Source: Chitinophagaceae bacterium
GTDB lineage: Bacteria; Bacteroidota; Bacteroidia; Chitinophagales; Chitinophagaceae
Assembly (NCBI GenBank): GCA_014379345.1
Contig: JACMLY010000052.1
Span: forward strand, 1-64,000
Direction of reading: 5' to 3'
DNA: 64,000 nt
The notes below the pieces were generated by a model. The model had not been told where the DNA came from, made no database searches, and saw nothing but the letters and a program-made list of their open reading frames with translations. The position numbers and the translations under genes are program-made. This document shows, one piece after another, positions 28,321-56,214 of this stretch; position 1 is the first letter of the stretch, and each line of letters starts with the position of its first letter.

Positions 28321-29406
28321 TTGCTCCAACTAACCAACATATCACTTGTTCAGTTTAAAAATTACCTGCAAACCTCATTTTCCTTTAATGAACGCATTAT
28401 CGGGATCTGCGGGCCCAATGGAATTGGAAAAACCAATCTTCTCGATGGTATCTATTACCTCTGTTTTACAAAAAGTTATTTTTCGAGATTGGATTCCCAA
28501 AATACACATGCCGGACTGGAGGGTTTCAGGATTGAAGGCAGTTTTCAACTTAATAACCAACAAGAAAAAATAGTTTGCATTTTACGCGAAACCGGTCGCA
28601 AGGAATTTTTTTTAAATGACGATCTCTATGGAAAAGTTTCGCACCATATCGGAAAATTTCCCTGCGTGATCATTGCACCCGATGATGTGGAGATCATTAC
28701 TGAAGGCGGGGAAGCACGACGTCGGTTTCTTGACGCGCTGCTTTCACAACTCGATAGCTCGTACCTGCAAAACCTGATGGATTACAACAAAGTGCTGCAA
28801 CAGCGCAATAGTTATTTGAAATCGATGGCTGAAACACGCGTGCAGGATAAGAATTTATTGGAAGTATATAACCAGCAATTGATAAAGTATGGTGAGTTTA
28901 TTTTCAGGGAGCGAAAGAATTTCTTAAAAGATTTCCTTCCGGAAGTAATCAGGTTTTACCAGCAGATAGCGCAGGTAAAGGAACAAGTGGAATTGGTTTA
29001 TGAAAGTCAGTTGCAACATAGTTCATTTGAAAATTTGCTGCACCAGTTCCGTGATCGTGATCTTTTGTACCAGCGTACCCATGGAGGTGTTCATAAGGAT
29101 GAACTGTCAATGAATTTGAACGGCCAGGCTTTTAAAAGTATCGCATCGCAGGGACAAAGAAAAAGTTTGCTCTTTGCATTGAAGCTGGCAGAATTTGAAA
29201 CATTGAAGTCTGCTAAAAATTTTGCGCCCCTCCTTCTGCTGGATGATGTTTTTGAAAAGCTCGATGAAAAACGCATGCATAATCTCCTCGATTGGGTTTG
29301 TGTACAAAATGGGGGACAGATCTTCATAACAGATACACATTCTGAAAGAATACAGCATCATTTTGGTAATCTGGGTGTTTCTTATCAGTTGATCAGTTTA
29401 CCATAA
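28321..29406 (+). CDS. recF: DNA replication and repair protein RecF
   Basis: About 361 residues. RecF is an SMC-like ATPase that loads RecA at gaps with RecO and RecR. Walker A is CGPNGIGKTNLLDGIYYL, the ABC signature is SQGQRKSLLFALK near 285, and Walker B is LLLLDDVFEKLDEKR near 310. No ATG lies in the right place. I chose the TTG at 28321, giving MLQLTNISLVQFKNY, because the family begins with that strand; TTG at 28294 would add nine residues. The stop abuts a long repeat hairpin, and a DUF721 gene follows, the usual recF neighbour in this phylum. Confidence 0.93.
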   Translation: MLQLTNISLVQFKNYLQTSFSFNERIIGICGPNGIGKTNLLDGIYYLCFTKSYFSRLDSQNTHAGLEGFRIEGSFQLNNQQEKIVCILRETGRKEFFLNDDLYGKVSHHIGKFPCVIIAPDDVEIITEGGEARRRFLDALLSQLDSSYLQNLMDYNKVLQQRNSYLKSMAETRVQDKNLLEVYNQQLIKYGEFIFRERKNFLKDFLPEVIRFYQQIAQVKEQVELVYESQLQHSSFENLLHQFRDRDLLYQRTHGGVHKDELSMNLNGQAFKSIASQGQRKSLLFALKLAEFETLKSAKNFAPLLLLDDVFEKLDEKRMHNLLDWVCVQNGGQIFITDTHSERIQHHFGNLGVSYQLISLP

Positions 29407-29551
29407 AGTTTAAAGTTTAAGGTTTAAAGTTTAAAGTTGTAGGTAGGTAGTAACTTACGTCTCTATTTTAAACCTTAAACCTTAAACCTTAAACCTTAAA
29501 CCTTAAACCTTAAACCTTAAACCTTAAACCTTAAACCTTAAACCTTAAACC
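29404..29551. repeat. Hairpin with twelve perfect TTAAACC units
   Basis: The left arm (29404-29438) consists of TTTAAAG/TTTAAGG words and begins at the recF stop. The right arm has twelve uninterrupted TTAAACC heptamers at 29468-29551. The arms are complementary apart from some G/A changes. It fills the recF to DUF721 gap and ends 11 bp before the DUF721 start. Confidence 0.95.
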
Positions 29552-29562
29552 TTCTTCAAAAG

Positions 29563-37411: not shown

Positions 37412-37610
37412 GGATAATTGGCCAACTGGCTGATTAGCCGATTAGCAGATTAGCAAATTAGCCGACTAGCAGTCTTGTTAACAATAAATGTGATACTGGT
37501 CGTTGATGAGGGGATTCGGTCATTAGCGGATTAGCCGATTAGACATCTTTATCCAACGAACGAGATCCCATCGGCTAATCAGCTAATTGGCTAATTGGCT
37601 AATTGGCATT
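37412..37610. repeat. GATTAGCC/AATTGGC word repeat between divergent genes
   Basis: The left part (37412-37470) consists of GATTAGC, CAAATTAGCC words and the right part (37569-37606) of CGGCTAATCAGCTAATTGGC words, with a middle patch, CGGATTAGCCGATTAGAC. Left and right are reverse complements in part. It fills the promoter space of nrnA and ndk. A TTG-started ndk extension would be made of it. Confidence 0.9.
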
Positions 37611-50703: not shown

Positions 50704-51645
50704 ATGGACGTATCCATTGTTGTGCCATTGTTTAATGAAGAAGAATCATTACCGGAACTTTGTAGCTGGATTGAAAGAGTATGCACAGACAACCACCTAA
50801 GCTATGAAATAGTGCTGATCGATGATGGAAGTACGGATGCTTCCTGGAATATTGTTGAATCACTTTCCGCCGGCAATCCTCATATTAAGGGAATTCGTTT
50901 CCAAAGAAATTATGGTAAATCGGCGGCTTTGAATGAAGGATTTAAATTGGTGCAGGGTGATGTTGTGATCACTATGGATGCAGATATGCAGGATAGCCCG
51001 GATGAGATACCGGAACTCAGGAAAATGATCATTAAAGATGGGTACGACCTGGTAAGCGGATGGAAACAAAGAAGGCACGATCCTATCAGCAAAACAATTC
51101 CCTCTAAATTTTTTAACGGGGTAACAGCCAGGGTGTCAAAAATCAAATTACACGATTTTAACTGCGGGCTTAAGGCTTACAAATTAAAAGTTGTAAAAAC
51201 CATCGAGGTTTACGGTGAAATGCACCGCTATATTCCATTGATCGCAAAATGGGCGGGCTATAGAAAGATCGGTGAAAAAGTAGTGGAGCACCGGGCAAGG
51301 AAATACGGTAAATCGAAATTTGGCCTTGAGCGCTTCGTAAATGGATTTCTCGATCTGGCCTCCATTATGTTTGTCGGAAAATTCGGTAAACGTCCCATGC
51401 ATTTTTTTGGTACCTGGGGAACGATTTGTTTCCTGTTTGGATTTCTCGTCTTTACCTATCTCACGATCTCCAAATTTTTTCTTGAGAAAACAGGAATGAC
51501 GCAAAGACCGTTGTTTTTCTTTGCGCTGTTGGCAATGATCATCGGTACACAGTTATTTCTCACAGGATTCATTGCCGAATTGATTACAAGAAATGCATCC
51601 GGAAGGAATTTTTATCTGATCGAAAAGAAAATCGGATTTGAGTAA
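50704..51645 (+). CDS. Family 2 glycosyltransferase with two membrane helices
   Basis: 313 residues. GT2 domain: VSIVVPLFNEEESLPELC at the start, IDDGSTDASWNIV near 40, and the DxD-type VITMDADMQDSPDEIPEL near 90, which binds the nucleotide sugar through a metal. The C-terminal two helices (WGTICFLFGFLVFTYLTI and FFALLAMIIGTQLFLTGFIA) match the DPM1/ArnC/GtrB group that loads sugars onto undecaprenyl phosphate. It overlaps the next gene by 8 bases. Confidence 0.93.
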   Translation: MDVSIVVPLFNEEESLPELCSWIERVCTDNHLSYEIVLIDDGSTDASWNIVESLSAGNPHIKGIRFQRNYGKSAALNEGFKLVQGDVVITMDADMQDSPDEIPELRKMIIKDGYDLVSGWKQRRHDPISKTIPSKFFNGVTARVSKIKLHDFNCGLKAYKLKVVKTIEVYGEMHRYIPLIAKWAGYRKIGEKVVEHRARKYGKSKFGLERFVNGFLDLASIMFVGKFGKRPMHFFGTWGTICFLFGFLVFTYLTISKFFLEKTGMTQRPLFFFALLAMIIGTQLFLTGFIAELITRNASGRNFYLIEKKIGFE

Positions 51646-52861
51646 GATAGTCATTATAGGGCCGGCATATCCTCTCCGGGGAGGGCTGGCAACCTTTAAT
51701 CAACGCCTGGCAAAACAGTTTTCAGATGAGGGCCATGAATGCAGCATCTATTCTTTTTCATTGCAGTATCCATCCTTTCTGTTTCCCGGTACAACGCAGT
51801 ATTCGATTGACCCGCCTCCTGCAGATCTGAAAATCTTTACAGCCATTAATTCCATCAATCCCTTCAATTGGATAAAAATTGGAAATAAGCTAAAAAAAAA
51901 TCGACCCGATATTATTGTTGTGCGTTACTGGTTGCCATTTATGGGACCTGCATTAGGAACGATCCTGAGAAGGGTAAAAAAAAACAGGCACACAAAGATC
52001 ATTGCCATTACCGATAATATTTTACCACATGAAAAAAGAACCGGCGATGTTCCGTTCACAAAATATTTTCTCAAGAGCTGCGATGGTTTTATTACCATGA
52101 GCGAAAAAGTAATGAATGATCTGCGAAGGTTTGAAAAGGGTAAGCCGGCGAAACAGGTATTGCATCCCCTGTATGATAATTTTGGTTTCCCGGTTCAAAA
52201 AGAAGAAGCCCGCAGATACTTAAAAATTGCGCAAGATGATTTTATCCTGCTTTTTTTCGGTTTCATTCGCAAATACAAAGGCTTGGATTTATTACTGGAC
52301 GCGATGGCAATACTTAAAAAAAAATCATTGCTACCCACGCCTATTAAAGAACCTGATGCCGTACAGACTGGCCTGCCTACCGGACAGGTAGATCCGCCGC
52401 TCACCACTCACCATTCACCACTCACCATTCACCTTCTCGTAGCCGGCGAGTTTTATGAAGACAGTGAGCCCTACCTGCAACAAATACGAAATCTGGGAAT
52501 AGAAGACGATCTGATACTCAAAACCAATTTCATACCTGACAATGAAGTAAAATATTATTTCAGTGCGGCCGATGCAGTTATTCAACCTTACCGAAATGCT
52601 ACGCAAAGCGGGGTTACGCCACTCTCCTATCATTTTGAGAAACCGATGATCGTTACCAATGTCGGAAGTTTACCCGCCTTGGTGCCGCATGAACAGGTTG
52701 GAATTGTATGTGAACCAAACGCCGCTTCTATTGCGATGGCTATACAACGGTATATCGAATTAGGCGAAAATTATTTTTTGCCGCATCTTCGCAATGAAAA
52801 ACTAAAGTATTCATGGAGTACGCTTACCAAAACTGTTTTCGAATTATCAAACATGGTCTGA
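51638..52861 (+). CDS. Family 4 glycosyltransferase with an in-frame repeat insertion
   Basis: 407 residues from a TTG that overlaps the previous stop. The start, MSKIVIIGPAYPLRGGLATF, is a GT4 donor-binding glycine loop. GFIRKYKGLDLLLDAMAILK (near 205) and then GVTPLSYHFEKPMIVTNVG (about 330-350) form the C-terminal Rossmann domain. Between the helix after KGLD and the LLVAGEFYEDSEPY strand there is an unexpected stretch, LLPTPIKEPDAVQTGLPTGQ and then PPLTTHHSPLTIH, coded by repeats. The last codons are Met-Val-stop, from a GGTCTGAC repeat. It is likely still a working sugar transferase of the surface glycan cluster. Confidence 0.9.
   Translation: MSKIVIIGPAYPLRGGLATFNQRLAKQFSDEGHECSIYSFSLQYPSFLFPGTTQYSIDPPPADLKIFTAINSINPFNWIKIGNKLKKNRPDIIVVRYWLPFMGPALGTILRRVKKNRHTKIIAITDNILPHEKRTGDVPFTKYFLKSCDGFITMSEKVMNDLRRFEKGKPAKQVLHPLYDNFGFPVQKEEARRYLKIAQDDFILLFFGFIRKYKGLDLLLDAMAILKKKSLLPTPIKEPDAVQTGLPTGQVDPPLTTHHSPLTIHLLVAGEFYEDSEPYLQQIRNLGIEDDLILKTNFIPDNEVKYYFSAADAVIQPYRNATQSGVTPLSYHFEKPMIVTNVGSLPALVPHEQVGIVCEPNAASIAMAIQRYIELGENYFLPHLRNEKLKYSWSTLTKTVFELSNMV
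52376..52433. repeat. CTCACCATTCACC repeat inside the glycosyltransferase gene
   Basis: A CTACC/GGTAG palindrome (about 52376-52390) is followed by alternating CTCACCA and TTCACCA units at about 52400-52433. All are in frame. The words are of the same kind as the intergenic ones elsewhere in the window. Confidence 0.85.
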
Positions 52862-52877
52862 CGGTCGCCGTCTGACC
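52855..52877. repeat. GGTCTGAC palindromic element, copy B
   Basis: GGTCTGAC opens and GTCTGACC closes a 23-bp near palindrome. The GTC TGA within it is the last codon and stop of the glycosyltransferase. It matches copy A (33713-33741, read on the minus strand) at 19 of 23 positions. Confidence 0.9.
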
Positions 52878-52898
52878 AGATCAAACCTTAGTAAAAAT

Positions 52899-53004
52899 TT
52901 CGTTGTGTTCTTCGAGTCTTCCTTTGTGTCCTTTGTGAACCTTATGATTGTACAGGCAAGGGTTCACTAAGGACACAAAGGAAGACACAGAGAACACGAA
53001 GAAG
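52899..53004. repeat. CTTTGTGTCC word hairpin
   Basis: The left arm (52899-52943) holds GTGTTCTTCG, TCTTCCTTTGTGTCCTTTG and TGAACC, the right arm (52958-53004) GGTTCACTAAGGACACAAAG and GAAGACACAGAGAACACGAA. They are complementary over about 40 bp with few mismatches. It lies between the glycosyltransferase and hddA. Confidence 0.95.
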
Positions 53005-53035
53005 AATCTGGTAAAGTCCGGCATATAATACAACT

Positions 53036-54058
53036 ATGATCTATCGCAGCAAAGCTCCTTTACGGATTGGATTGGCAGGAGGCGGCACAGATGTTAGCCC
53101 TTATTGTGATCTGTATGGCGGGGCCATTTTAAATGCTACAGTTTCATTATATGCATATGCCAATATTGAACCCATAGCCGAAAATGCAATTATCCTTCAT
53201 GCCATAGACAGGAAAGAAGAACAGCGATTTGAATGGAATGCTGCATTGAGTATTGATGGCAAACTGGATTTGTTGAAGGGAGCTTATAACCACATTCAGC
53301 GTGTATTTGCATTGCCGTTAACCGGTTTTAAATTATCGACCTTTGTGGATGCGCCTGCCGGTTCGGGGCTTGGCACCTCTTCTACCCTGGTGGTAGCGAT
53401 CATTGGCGCCTTCGCCGAAATGTTGCGTTTACCATTGGGTGAATATGATGTGGCCCAGATGGCGTATATCATTGAACGAAGCGACTTAAAAATGGCTGGT
53501 GGAAGACAGGATCAGTATGCTGCCGCTTTCGGTGGGGTCAACTATATGGAATTTTTTGCAGAGGATAAAGTGATCGTAAACCCGTTGCGCATCAAACAAC
53601 AATATTTGTTTGAACTGGAAAATAACCTGGTGTTGTATTATACCGCTACGAGTCGCGAGTCAGCAAAAATTATAGAAGTACAAAGCAAAAATGTAACTGA
53701 CAAGAAAAACAAGCCGATAGAAGCGATGCACCAGTTGAAATTGCAGGCCCAGATGATGAAGGAAGCCCTGTTAAAAGGGCGTGTTCATGAAATAGGAGAA
53801 ATACTTGACTTTGGTTTCCGGCAAAAAAAGCAAATGGCAGAAGGCATTTCCAACACGCTCATGGAAGAAATTTATGAGGCGGCGAAAAAAGCCGGCGCAA
53901 CCGGTGGTAAAATTTCAGGTGCCGGCGGCGGTGGTTTCATGATTTTTTATTGCCCGGATAATACCAAATTCAAAGTGATGGATGCACTGTCAAATTTTGG
54001 AGGCATATGCAAAAATTACCAGTTTGTTGATCATGGTATGACTTCATGGACCATATAG
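53036..54058 (+). CDS. hddA: D-glycero-alpha-D-manno-heptose 7-phosphate kinase
   Basis: 340 residues, a GHMP-family kinase that phosphorylates heptose 7-phosphate at carbon 1 in the GDP-heptose route. Motifs: APLRIGLAGGGTDVSPYCD near residue 6 (motif 1), DAPAGSGLGTSSTLVVAIIG near 105 (the ATP loop) and GKISGAGGGGFMIFYC near 295 (motif 3). ATG at 53036 follows a repeat hairpin. The other three enzymes of the route follow (gmhA, hddC, gmhB), so the assignment is strong from context and sequence. Confidence 0.93.
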   Translation: MIYRSKAPLRIGLAGGGTDVSPYCDLYGGAILNATVSLYAYANIEPIAENAIILHAIDRKEEQRFEWNAALSIDGKLDLLKGAYNHIQRVFALPLTGFKLSTFVDAPAGSGLGTSSTLVVAIIGAFAEMLRLPLGEYDVAQMAYIIERSDLKMAGGRQDQYAAAFGGVNYMEFFAEDKVIVNPLRIKQQYLFELENNLVLYYTATSRESAKIIEVQSKNVTDKKNKPIEAMHQLKLQAQMMKEALLKGRVHEIGEILDFGFRQKKQMAEGISNTLMEEIYEAAKKAGATGGKISGAGGGGFMIFYCPDNTKFKVMDALSNFGGICKNYQFVDHGMTSWTI

Positions 54059-54073
54059 ACCGGGATAATGATG

Positions 54074-54144
54074 TTTAAGGTTTAAAGTTTAAAGTTAACA
54101 CCCCACAATTCTAAACCTTACACCTTACACCTTAAACCTTAAAA
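54074..54144. repeat. TTTAAGG/CCTTAAA word hairpin
   Basis: The left arm TTTAAGGTTTAAAGTTTAAA (from 54074) pairs with the right arm CCTTACACC, CCTTAAACCTTAAA (54113-54144). The same words form the hairpin after recF. It lies between hddA and gmhA inside the operon, ending three bases before the gmhA start. Confidence 0.92.
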
Positions 54145-54146
54145 AC

Positions 54147-54722
54147 ATGCAAGATAAAATCAGGAACATCATTAGTGAGTCGGTAGCCGTGAAAAACCAG
54201 CTATTACAAAACGACGCATTGCTGAAAACGGTTGAAGACGTAGCCTCCCTGATGGTAAGGGCCTTGAAGAACGGCAATCGTATTTATTTCTGTGGCAATG
54301 GTGGCAGCGCAGCAGATGCCCAGCATCTGGCGGCAGAATTTTCAGGCAGATTTTATATCGACAGGGATGCATTGCCGGCAGAAGCACTGCATTGTAACAC
54401 TTCCTACATAACAGCCGTAGGTAACGACTATGGGTACGACCTGGTGTATGCAAGACTCATAAAAGGCATCGGGAATAAAGGAGATTTCCTGGTAGGCTTG
54501 TCAACTTCGGGCAATTCGCCCAATATTATAAAGGCGTTGGAGGTGGCCAGGGAAAAAGGAATAGTTACGGTAGGATTTACAGGAGAAACGGGCGGCAAAA
54601 TGAAGGAGCTGTGCGATCACCTGCTGAATATCCCCTCAACCAATACTCCACGGATACAGGAATCCCATATCATGCTCGGACATATTGTTTGCCAATTGGT
54701 AGAAGAACAATATTTTGGATAA
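54147..54722 (+). CDS. gmhA: Sedoheptulose 7-phosphate isomerase
   Basis: 191 residues, a SIS-domain enzyme that makes D-glycero-D-manno-heptose 7-phosphate, the first step of heptose nucleotide synthesis. Motifs: YFCGNGGSAADAQHLAAEFS near 49, LHCNTSYITAVGNDYGYDLV near 84, FLVGLSTSGNSPNIIKALEV near 113 and IQESHIMLGHIVCQLVE near the end. Length and start are normal. The downstream hddC begins 1 bp later, so it is in one operon. Confidence 0.96.
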   Translation: MQDKIRNIISESVAVKNQLLQNDALLKTVEDVASLMVRALKNGNRIYFCGNGGSAADAQHLAAEFSGRFYIDRDALPAEALHCNTSYITAVGNDYGYDLVYARLIKGIGNKGDFLVGLSTSGNSPNIIKALEVAREKGIVTVGFTGETGGKMKELCDHLLNIPSTNTPRIQESHIMLGHIVCQLVEEQYFG

Positions 54723-54723
54723 C

Positions 54724-55434
54724 ATGAAAATCAGAGAGGCCATTGTACTTGCAGGGGGATTGGGCACCAGGCTGCGCAGCGTTGTTCCCGACCTTCCGAA
54801 ATGTATGGCAGCTGTTGCCGGCAAACCTTTTCTATATTATGTGATTGTTTATTTCCAGAAACAGGGAATTGAAAAATTCATTTTGTCGTTGGGTTACAAA
54901 CATGAGATCATCGAGGAATACATTGCAAAGGAGTTTGGAAATAAAAATTTTATTTTTTCGGTAGAGAACGAACCCCTTGGTACCGGAGGTGCGATTAGAA
55001 CCGGCTGTAATCATTCTACTGAAAAAACAGTGCTGGTACTGAACGGTGATACATTTTTCAAAGTGAACCTGGATAAACTTGCACCTTTTCACCAGATCTG
55101 TGGCGCGCATTGTACTTTATCACTTAAGCCGATGAAGAGTTTTGAACGGTATGGCGTTGTGCAATTGAATAAGGATTATTCCATTCAAGATTTCCAGGAA
55201 AAAAAATATTATGACGAAGGTCTGATCAACGGTGGCGTGTATGCACTAGACGTTCTGAAATTCCAGCAGGAAAATCTTCCCGAAAAATTTTCTTTCGAAA
55301 AAGATTATCTGGAATCCTTGTACACCCAACGCCGGATATTCGGTGTGATACAGGATGAATATTTTATTGATATCGGGATACCGGAAGATTATGAAAGAGC
55401 GCAGCGGGAGTTGATTGGCCGATGTGAAAATTAG
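54724..55434 (+). CDS. hddC: Heptose 1-phosphate guanylyltransferase
   Basis: 236 residues from the ATG giving MKIREAIVLAGGLGTRLR. A TTG nine bases earlier is possible but less likely. The nucleotidyltransferase start, LAGGLGTRLRSVVPDLPKCM, matches HddC, which forms GDP-D-glycero-alpha-D-manno-heptose; ENEPLGTGGAIRTG and VLNGDTFFKVN are the other nucleotide and metal motifs. It follows gmhA after one base. The last residues (IGRCEN) and the TAG are encoded by the start of a word repeat. Confidence 0.9.
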   Translation: MKIREAIVLAGGLGTRLRSVVPDLPKCMAAVAGKPFLYYVIVYFQKQGIEKFILSLGYKHEIIEEYIAKEFGNKNFIFSVENEPLGTGGAIRTGCNHSTEKTVLVLNGDTFFKVNLDKLAPFHQICGAHCTLSLKPMKSFERYGVVQLNKDYSIQDFQEKKYYDEGLINGGVYALDVLKFQQENLPEKFSFEKDYLESLYTQRRIFGVIQDEYFIDIGIPEDYERAQRELIGRCEN

Positions 55435-55637
55435 CCAATTAGCCGATGTGATGGCAAATTGGCCGATGTGATGATTGGCAAATTAGCCGATGTGAATATG
55501 AAGGATTGCCTATAGCTGTATTTTAGTTTGATCGGATTTATAATTCTGATCAGTATGTTCTGTATTATCTATTCTATTTTCACATTTGCTAATTTGCACA
55601 TTGGCCAATTGGCTAATTACCACATCGGCTAATTCAC
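55413..55637. repeat. AATTAGCCGATGTG word hairpin
   Basis: The left arm (55413-55500) consists of ATTGGCCGATGTG, AATTAGCCGATGTG and GGCAAATT units, and the right arm (55579-55637) of TTCACATTTGCTAATTTGC, CACATTGGCCAATTGG and CACATCGGCTAATTCAC. The arms are complementary in long stretches. The arm begins inside the hddC coding region, and the right arm ends one base before the gmhB start. Confidence 0.93.
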
Positions 55638-55638
55638 T

Positions 55639-56214
55639 ATGCTTGATTTAAAAAACGTAGATCCCAGCTGGACATTGTTTCTCGATCGTGATGGCGTGAT
55701 CAATCATGAAAAAAAAATGGATTACGTGTATCACTACAATGAGTTTGTTTTTTATGACCGTGTTCAGGAGGCTCTGAAGATCTTCTCTAAATACGTTGGC
55801 AAGATGATCATTGTCACTAACCAGCGTGGCGTTGGCAGGGGTTTGATGTCGGAAAATGATTTATTGCAAATACATGTTCAAATGATTGAAGACATCCGGA
55901 ATTCGGGGGGAAGAATCGATGAAATTTTTTACTGTATTTCCACCGATAATGAACACCCGGATCGGAAACCAAATCCGGGTATGGCATACCTGGCGCAAAA
56001 AAAATTCCCACTGATCGATTTAAAAAAATCAATCATGGTGGGAAATAATTTAAGTGATATGCAATTCGGCCGCAATGCGGGTATGTTCACCGTTCATGTA
56101 CGAACCACGCATCCTGATATCAAATTGCCTCACGAATTAATCGATATGTCATTCGCAAATCTTTTTGATTTCGCAACAGCCTTACAAACTGCTAAGGAAA
56201 ATTCGAAATATTAG
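55639..56214 (+). CDS. gmhB: Heptose 1,7-bisphosphate phosphatase-like HAD protein
   Basis: 191 residues. HAD motif I is FLDRDGVINHEKKMDY, motif II MIIVTNQRGVGRG, and motifs III and IV PDRKPNPGMAYLAQ and KSIMVGNNLSDMQFGRNAG. It removes the 7-phosphate of heptose 1,7-bisphosphate. The classic GmhB zinc loop (two Cys-x-Cys/His pairs) is only partial: YCISTDNEHPDRKPNPG, so the zinc site may be missing. The operon position with gmhA, hddA and hddC supports the name. Its end overlaps the convergent SRPBCC gene by 23 bases. Confidence 0.85.
   Translation: MLDLKNVDPSWTLFLDRDGVINHEKKMDYVYHYNEFVFYDRVQEALKIFSKYVGKMIIVTNQRGVGRGLMSENDLLQIHVQMIEDIRNSGGRIDEIFYCISTDNEHPDRKPNPGMAYLAQKKFPLIDLKKSIMVGNNLSDMQFGRNAGMFTVHVRTTHPDIKLPHELIDMSFANLFDFATALQTAKENSKY

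Follow-up and report, generated by a model that had tools for sequence, protein, structure and literature searches.

How can DNA repeats that lie mostly between genes come to be translated as part of a conserved enzyme without breaking its reading frame? The question is raised by a GT4-like glycosyltransferase gene on contig C66 of a draft genome (G000; 5.14 Mb in 173 contigs), which was the source of the 64,000-nucleotide stretch analyzed here and called the window.

A repeat-built insert in a GT4-like enzyme

The gene (51638 to 52861, forward strand) encodes 407 amino acids from a TTG start, and its reading frame is open across the segment under study. The product matched the Pfam families Glycos_transf_1 (4.8e-16) and Glyco_transf_4 (4.4e-10); no NCBIfam model scored above its cut-off. 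An AlphaFold model (mcbe0224e8171; 49 sequences, mean pLDDT 91, pTM 0.86) found its fold matches in the PDB among enzymes of the MshA/BshA type, with MshA and BshA themselves leading, and the Pfam domains together with the predicted GT-B fold assign the protein, by model, to GT4.

The initial annotation had proposed that an extra 30-35 residues lie between two conserved segments and that alignment with homologues would define their edges. The left flank, FFGFIRKYKGLDLLLDAMAILKKKS (52253 to 52327, forward strand), comprises a strand end, the invariant residues R211 and K214, and helix 216-230, and the right flank, HLLVAGEFYED (52430 to 52462, forward strand), lies inside and after strand 264-269. 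When the protein of a congener (G003) was used as the query, the homologous stretches in G000 stopped at 52327 and restarted at 52430, with 8 query residues skipped. The variable segment between these breaks (52328 to 52429, forward strand) has 34 codons compared with 8 in G003, and places the peptide SLLPTPIKEPDAVQTGLPTGQVDPPLTTHHSPLTIH between YKGLDLLLDAMAILKKK and LLVAGEFY. Measured from YKG to GEFY, the loop has 61 amino acids here, 35 in congeners G002 and G003, and 30 in G001. The congeners thus lack the insert; the insertion itself stands, but its size is smaller than first supposed, the net gain being 26 amino acids relative to G002 and G003 and 31 relative to G001, a multiple of three nucleotides. 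The edges carry an uncertainty of a few codons, and the first codons of the right flank overlap the end of a heptamer array.

The insert is composed as the initial annotation described it, of a palindrome and alternating CTCACCA and TTCACCA units. The 21-nt palindrome copy (52372 to 52392) differs from the consensus CCTGCCTGCCGGACAGGCAGG at three positions and includes the 15-mer CTACCGGACAGGTAG (52377 to 52391); the heptamer array (52400 to 52433, forward strand) spans 34 nt, for which TRF reported a period of 7 in 4.9 copies and also a 14-mer in 2.4 perfect copies. No target-site duplication was seen by eye at the insert, and a search of 51600 to 53100 returned no Rfam match at the gathering threshold. 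Because the predicted RNA fold of 52325 to 52435 was no better than that of shuffled sequences (z 0.41) and the 15-mer, with up to three mismatches allowed, had no match in the window but itself (2 strand matches against 0.45 expected, equalled in 6 of 100 shuffles), the palindrome is unremarkable when taken alone.

In the AlphaFold model, residues 231-263 form a predicted coil, preceded by helix 216-230 and followed by strand 264-269, and the coil blocks from 231 to 260 have pLDDT values of 53-59, which is low confidence. The active site of Rossmann domains is located at the C-terminal ends of the strands, and for this reason the loop, which leads from the first helix of the C-terminal Rossmann domain to the following strand, should point away from the active-site cleft. 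This orientation is a reading of topology.

The genes beside this one (53036 to 56214) include, by Pfam matches and open reading frames, a GHMP kinase, a SIS-domain protein and a nucleotidyltransferase, together with an ORF that we take to be HAD-type phosphatase-like; they may belong to a heptose-nucleotide pathway for surface glycans. Between the GT4-like and kinase genes (52890 to 53015), a long inverted repeat, TTCGAGTCTTCCTTTGTGTCC ... GGACACAAAGGAAGACACAGAG, was noticed by eye and represents another type of intergenic hairpin.

Repeat families of the genome and their copies in other genes

The claim that the words of the insert match an intergenic class holds at genome scale, but not within the window, where YTCACCAYTCACCA gave 15 matches with up to three mismatches against 14.7 expected, which is no excess. 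In the whole genome TCACYAYTCACYA had 118 matches against 48 for the reversed pattern, which makes an unclean control, being itself a rotation of the repeat. With three mismatches at most allowed, the consensus of the palindrome, CCTGCCTGCCGGACAGGCAGG, gave 15 and 14 matches on the two strands against 0 and 0 for its control; some places are counted on both strands, and the GT4 copy is among those with three mismatches. This family of many-copy elements of 20-40 bp is sparse in the congeners G001, G002 and G003 (0, 1 and 3 strand matches, respectively), whose GT4 genes have no copy of it. Only 5 of the 16 palindrome places shown have at least two heptamer words within 40 nt, and at those 5 the palindrome adjoins YTCACC or CAAACCA heptamers.

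A 464-kb sample of the genome held 31 places with a strong repeat at lag 7, 9 at lag 8, and none at lags 4-6 or 9-13. At a looser cut, 44 of 50 lag-7 places lay outside genes as called by a home-made gene caller, which called 86% of the sample coding; of the remaining six, four coincided with the end of an ORF or a likely false start, and the other two, in the GT4 and BioA genes, were truly inside genes. Lag 7 showed no clear excess inside the genes of this sample (6 genes; lag 15 likewise gave 6, and lags 18 and 23 gave 5 apiece), which argues that arrays within genes are rare events. The tandem 7-nt units thus exceed chance and are dispersed and mostly intergenic, as heptanucleotide repeats are. 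By eye, the intergenic arrays of the sample are often inverted pairs. Two examples from the window are GTTTAAA / TAAACCT (54068 to 54146), which ends just before an ATG at 54147, and TTTAAAG / TTAAACC (29400 to 29558), the longest heptamer block of the window, located outside called genes. A second class of arrays, with a period of 8, 16 or 24 and the words ATTAGC and GGCTAAT, occupies window positions 37432-37607 and 55414-55634; lag 8, with its 9 places, is the second commonest basic period of the sample.

Four exact copies of CTRCCGGACAGGYAG exist in the genome, each with at least two heptamer words within 40 nt. Three are in frame, in the GT4 gene, in BioA and in the linker of OdhB/SucB, and one lies just before the ATG of a gene that we take to be murC-like. 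At this murC-like gene (C163:135804), palindrome and heptamers form a composite that runs right up to the ATG and would therefore lie in the 5' leader. Palindrome and heptamers also stand side by side inside bioA, odhB/sucB and an rsmF-like gene, the first two of which were identified by the bioA and sucB models of NCBIfam. BioA has FSKGVTHYMPAGQEGSSPACRTGRLTIHP where its congeners have a shorter, unrelated stretch, as well as a second heptamer stretch, and its 447 residues compare with 418 positions covered by the model. Among 30 BioA loci in the genome and its relatives, none of the 28 scored at the first site had lag 7 (two were too short), and at the second site the one positive locus was that of G000 itself. 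The OdhB linker is variable in all relatives read and is not longer in G000, so the repeat there is a replacement and not a net gain; lag 7 was found in 4 of 30 linkers and lags 15, 18 and 21 in 5, 4 and 4, which means that the lag-7 signal at this place is not specific.

The first 100 of the 118 matches resolved into 57 distinct TCACYA arrays, 4 of them inside long ORFs: those of GT4, an RsmF-like methyltransferase and TrpG, and one antisense to a DapA-like ORF. TrpG is the cleanest further case. Its residues 130-156 (27 residues) stand against a single residue in the best PDB chain, 6qur (with the next chain, 8rp0, the two stretches leave a difference of about 20), and the DNA of this insert is an in-frame inverted pair of heptamer arrays. 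LipB and the RsmF-like protein also hold repeat words, with edges left unfixed by the PDB alignments, and LipB is suggestive only. The array antisense to the DapA-like ORF and one in a flavoprotein-like ORF we took to be native, and they are not counted as insertions. Together, the breaks against congeners and the dispersed repeat classes confirm that the in-frame GT4 insert is real.

Recurrence in one loop and the origin of the insert

To view the loop across relatives, GT4 matches were collected from 52 of 59 genomes (G000 included), and 30 loci were read without regard to the loop; in this first set, the G000 loop had 61 amino acids and the 29 others had 27-37. A wider family search matched 279 of 294 genomes, and 20 further loci were chosen among the matches listed, 14 of them by eye for a span at least 12 nt beyond the query and the remainder taken from its upper entries. 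Among those matches, G000 was the only two-match genome with both on one contig, the two lying on different contigs in G100, G162, G178, G256 and G274. One of the 50 loci (L073) was left out of the count because its loop motifs were not found; the 19 additional loops had at most 51 amino acids, and the G000 loop is the longest of all 49. None of these 49 loops presented what the initial annotation had named as counting against an insertion, a repeat-free homologue with the same segment.

A 7-nt period, defined without any word list as at least 11 of 14 matches at lag 7, was found in 13 of the 49 loops, in 11 genera, the set being enriched for long loops. Codon-shuffled loops gave a mean of 0.17 and a maximum of 2 of 49 at lag 7 in 500 rounds. 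Lag 14, a harmonic of 7, was found in 11 loops and lag 21 in 10, and lags 4-6, 8-13 and 15-20 together in one. Loci taken regardless of the loop had lag 7 in 3 of 30, so 13 of 49 is no population rate. The rest of these GT4 genes, 53.6 kb in all, yielded 7 genes at lag 7, compared with 13 in the 2.7 kb of loops, and there lag 7 was not special (12 genes at lag 9 and 9 at lag 18). The words, read by eye, vary: AATTCCC occurs in the loops of G272, G015 and G010, GCATAAC in G260, AACAAAC in G233 and G276, a CAGGCAG-like word in G299, and TCTGAAG/TCGGAGG as an inverted pair in G199. The palindrome CCCGATAGCTATCGGG is present in the G154 loop, with near-copies twice in that of G064, and most heptamer loops of relatives are without the 21-nt palindrome.

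One could envisage that the loop is selected as a flexible or functional linker and that the DNA period is a by-product of repeats at the protein level. Loop length does vary widely, and flexible linkers matter in proteins such as OdhB. However, since 7 is not a multiple of 3, the period does not arise from short protein repeats; these would predict lags of 6, 9, 12, 15 and 18, which total one of 49 loops against 13 at lag 7, and the loop peptides differ between genera. We consider this explanation improbable. Still less credible, to the point of being nearly negligible, is an artefact of assembly or sequencing, which a draft in 173 contigs might invite: the frame is open, the net gain can be divided by three, further genes of G000 are affected alike, and heptamer loops were also found in G260 and G110, where the GT4 genes lie on contigs of 4.7 and 8.4 Mb.

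Does the loop reflect the repeat load of its genome? In 1.59 Mb sampled from 40 relatives, 62 places were found at lag 7, 14 at lag 8, and at most 4 at any other lag below 14. At least one lag-7 place occurred in the samples of 12 of 13 genomes with a heptamer loop and 11 of 28 others (Fisher p 0.0014; 0.0024 without G000), a yes/no split made after the data had been seen, and heptamer density also differed between the loop classes (Mann-Whitney p 0.021). The comparison ignores kinship, uses about 40 kb per relative and 400 kb of G000, and leaves out 8 of the 49 loop genomes (G002, G008, G019, G022, G026, G028, G033 and G038). Loop length did not correlate with density in this sample (Spearman 0.11, p 0.49), and the two highest densities, 42.5 and 22.5 per 100 kb, belong to G012 and G006, whose loops have no heptamers. 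The sampled loci of these two (L284-L285 in G012 and L272-L273 in G006) mark them as good genomes for a full survey of arrays within genes.

The palindromes have counterparts in dispersed families of the genomes that carry them, and the heptamer words only in part. A test of word copying in 28 genomes was favorable for two palindromes, weak for AATTCCC, which is thinly spread in G015 and G272, and negative for GCATAAC, which occurs nowhere else in G260 as a tandem 14-mer. Copying from a local intergenic family is therefore weak or fails in these cases, and local generation is assumed there. Carrying a palindrome family does not predict an insert either: the 21-mer has 9-22 strand matches in G064, G031, G272, G030 and G010, and CCCGATAGCTATCGGG has 55 copies in G015, yet the loops of these six genomes are without these palindromes, with the exception of CCCGATAGCTATCGGG in G064.

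Dispersal of the 21-nt palindrome, and its position beside YTCACC or CAAACCA heptamers at the 5 places mentioned above, would also fit a small mobile palindromic element (REP- or MITE-like) that was moved in trans by a transposase such as RAYT and brought heptamers along; a Y1 transposase match was present in 24 of 28 genomes searched. We regard such an element as unlikely. Neither palindrome lies in any of 31 Y1 loci examined among 59 listed (30 with flanks of about 1.5 kb or less and one 20-kb stretch, both matches of G000 included), and the sole strong Y1 gene of G000 is flanked, by eye, by a different palindrome. G015, which is without a Y1 match in a genome only 72% complete, has the most copies of CCCGATAGCTATCGGG, and genera differ in their heptamer words, contrary to what a single element would lead us to expect. 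A Y1 transposase gene of G000 (C134:54938-55282) lies amid many other palindromes of the AATCCCGTCAGGGATT and ATCCCTACGGGATG types, seen by eye, and looks like a REP system of its own.

That the period stays constant while the words change speaks for a local generating process more than for the copying of one element. We favor, with a probability of roughly 0.78, the reading that the heptamers come from a process acting on DNA and blind to genes, and that selection retains in-frame, stop-free copies in permissive loops; the lack of a general lag-7 excess inside genes and the small number of palindrome places adjoining heptamers (5 of 16) lower this probability slightly. Such a process, most likely replication slippage and template switching, would keep producing runs with a 7-nt period, and small palindromes often adjoining them, at many places in the genome. 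A copy would be lost if it shifted the frame, introduced a stop or hit the protein core, and one with a net length divisible by three and no stop in the frame used would survive in permissive surface connections, such as the helix-to-strand link that carries the GT4 insert. The initial annotation was right that the process enters coding DNA, but had the process itself preserve the frame; with only 2 of 50 lag-7 places truly inside genes in a sample called 86% coding, a survival filter explains the frame better. We infer that purifying selection is this filter, that the protein is expressed and that the insert is dispensable; it is probably tolerated and functionally near neutral.

A more specific variant, to which we give a small but appreciable chance, is that the generator is active and adds new sequence at every place open to it; it would possibly be a polymerase or a templating activity that moves in 7-nt steps, and not passive slippage, and permissive protein loops would act as its sinks. 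It is favored by a period that is conserved while words change and by the G260 loop word, unique in its genome as a tandem 14-mer, and, if true, it would mean that repeat-born peptide makes up a measurable part of the evolution of loops in this family. The locus offers a natural experiment, in which one loop of one enzyme has been hit repeatedly by non-coding repeats and congeners without the insert are at hand. It makes testable how intergenic repeats turn into protein, which positions tolerate nearly random peptide, and whether the bacterial heptamer excess reflects slippage or something more specific.

Comparison with known repeat systems

In-frame palindromes have been described from Rickettsia, Opitutus and several Proteobacteria, according to the available text of PMC3733652 and PMC10969869. 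To these the present case contributes a lineage of Bacteroidota and also tandem heptamers, in which the unit length is not divisible by three. What is new is that heptamer arrays, often with other words, recur in the same loop across genera of a family; among open-licence works at the level of title and abstract, we found none that describes heptamer arrays returning in a single enzyme loop in different genera of Bacteroidota.

Rickettsia palindromic elements (RPEs; Ogata et al. 2000, 2002), to which the insert had been likened, are about 150 bp long and each has a conserved peptide, as given in the accessible part of PMC10969869; the shorter RPE-4 and RPE-6 are counted as REPs in that of PMC3733652. 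The likeness extends to palindromic repeat DNA lying in frame inside unrelated conserved genes (GT4 and BioA, and TrpG with heptamers only). It ends there, since the GT4, BioA and OdhB copies have in common, by eye, only a core of about 21 nt and neighboring heptamer words, with no consensus of about 150 bp, and no peptide is conserved, since the frame in which the core is read varies and heptamer arrays are mixed in. One frame gives GLPTGQVD in GT4, DLPAGQAG in OdhB and HLPAGQTG in the RsmF-like protein; ACRTGRLT in BioA and ACLSGGQA in another ORF (L201), which had no match in NCBIfam and which we take to be DUF4256, are not in that frame. Without a conserved element of about 150 bp or a conserved peptide, the GT4 insert was rejected as an RPE.

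REPs tagged with GTAG or CGTC are mostly intergenic, with some inside ORFs, and two Xanthomonas recB genes carry different REPs at about the same site, as reported in the portion of PMC3733652 available. The palindromes described here are likewise short, dispersed and mostly intergenic, with some in ORFs. Unlike those REPs, the 21-nt consensus has no GTAG or CGTC tag; by eye, the other three exact copies end in GCAG, and the GT4 copy has its GTAG through a substitution. Nor do the copies resemble REPs with a RAYT, none having been found beside a Y1/RAYT gene in the 31 loci examined of the 59 Y1_Tnp matches listed. Repeated hits at one site are mainly heptamer arrays here, whereas they are REPs in Xanthomonas recB.

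The heptamers have closer counterparts in the TAACTGA repeats, which are dispersed and mainly intergenic, with cases in ORFs mostly at protein ends (PMC4679880, from the text accessible), and in GGGNATC, another heptamer repeat studied as a single word (PMC4692102, likewise). Slippage favored at 7 nt has been proposed to account for the heptanucleotide excess of bacteria (Mrazek et al. 2007, as cited in the available parts of both works). As far as these texts describe them, the two systems and ours have in common dispersed tandem arrays of 7 nt that are mainly intergenic, sometimes inverted and in a few instances in ORFs. In contrast to the single word treated in each of those accounts, the arrays described here use several words with one period, lie inside conserved enzymes and occur in one loop in 11 genera.
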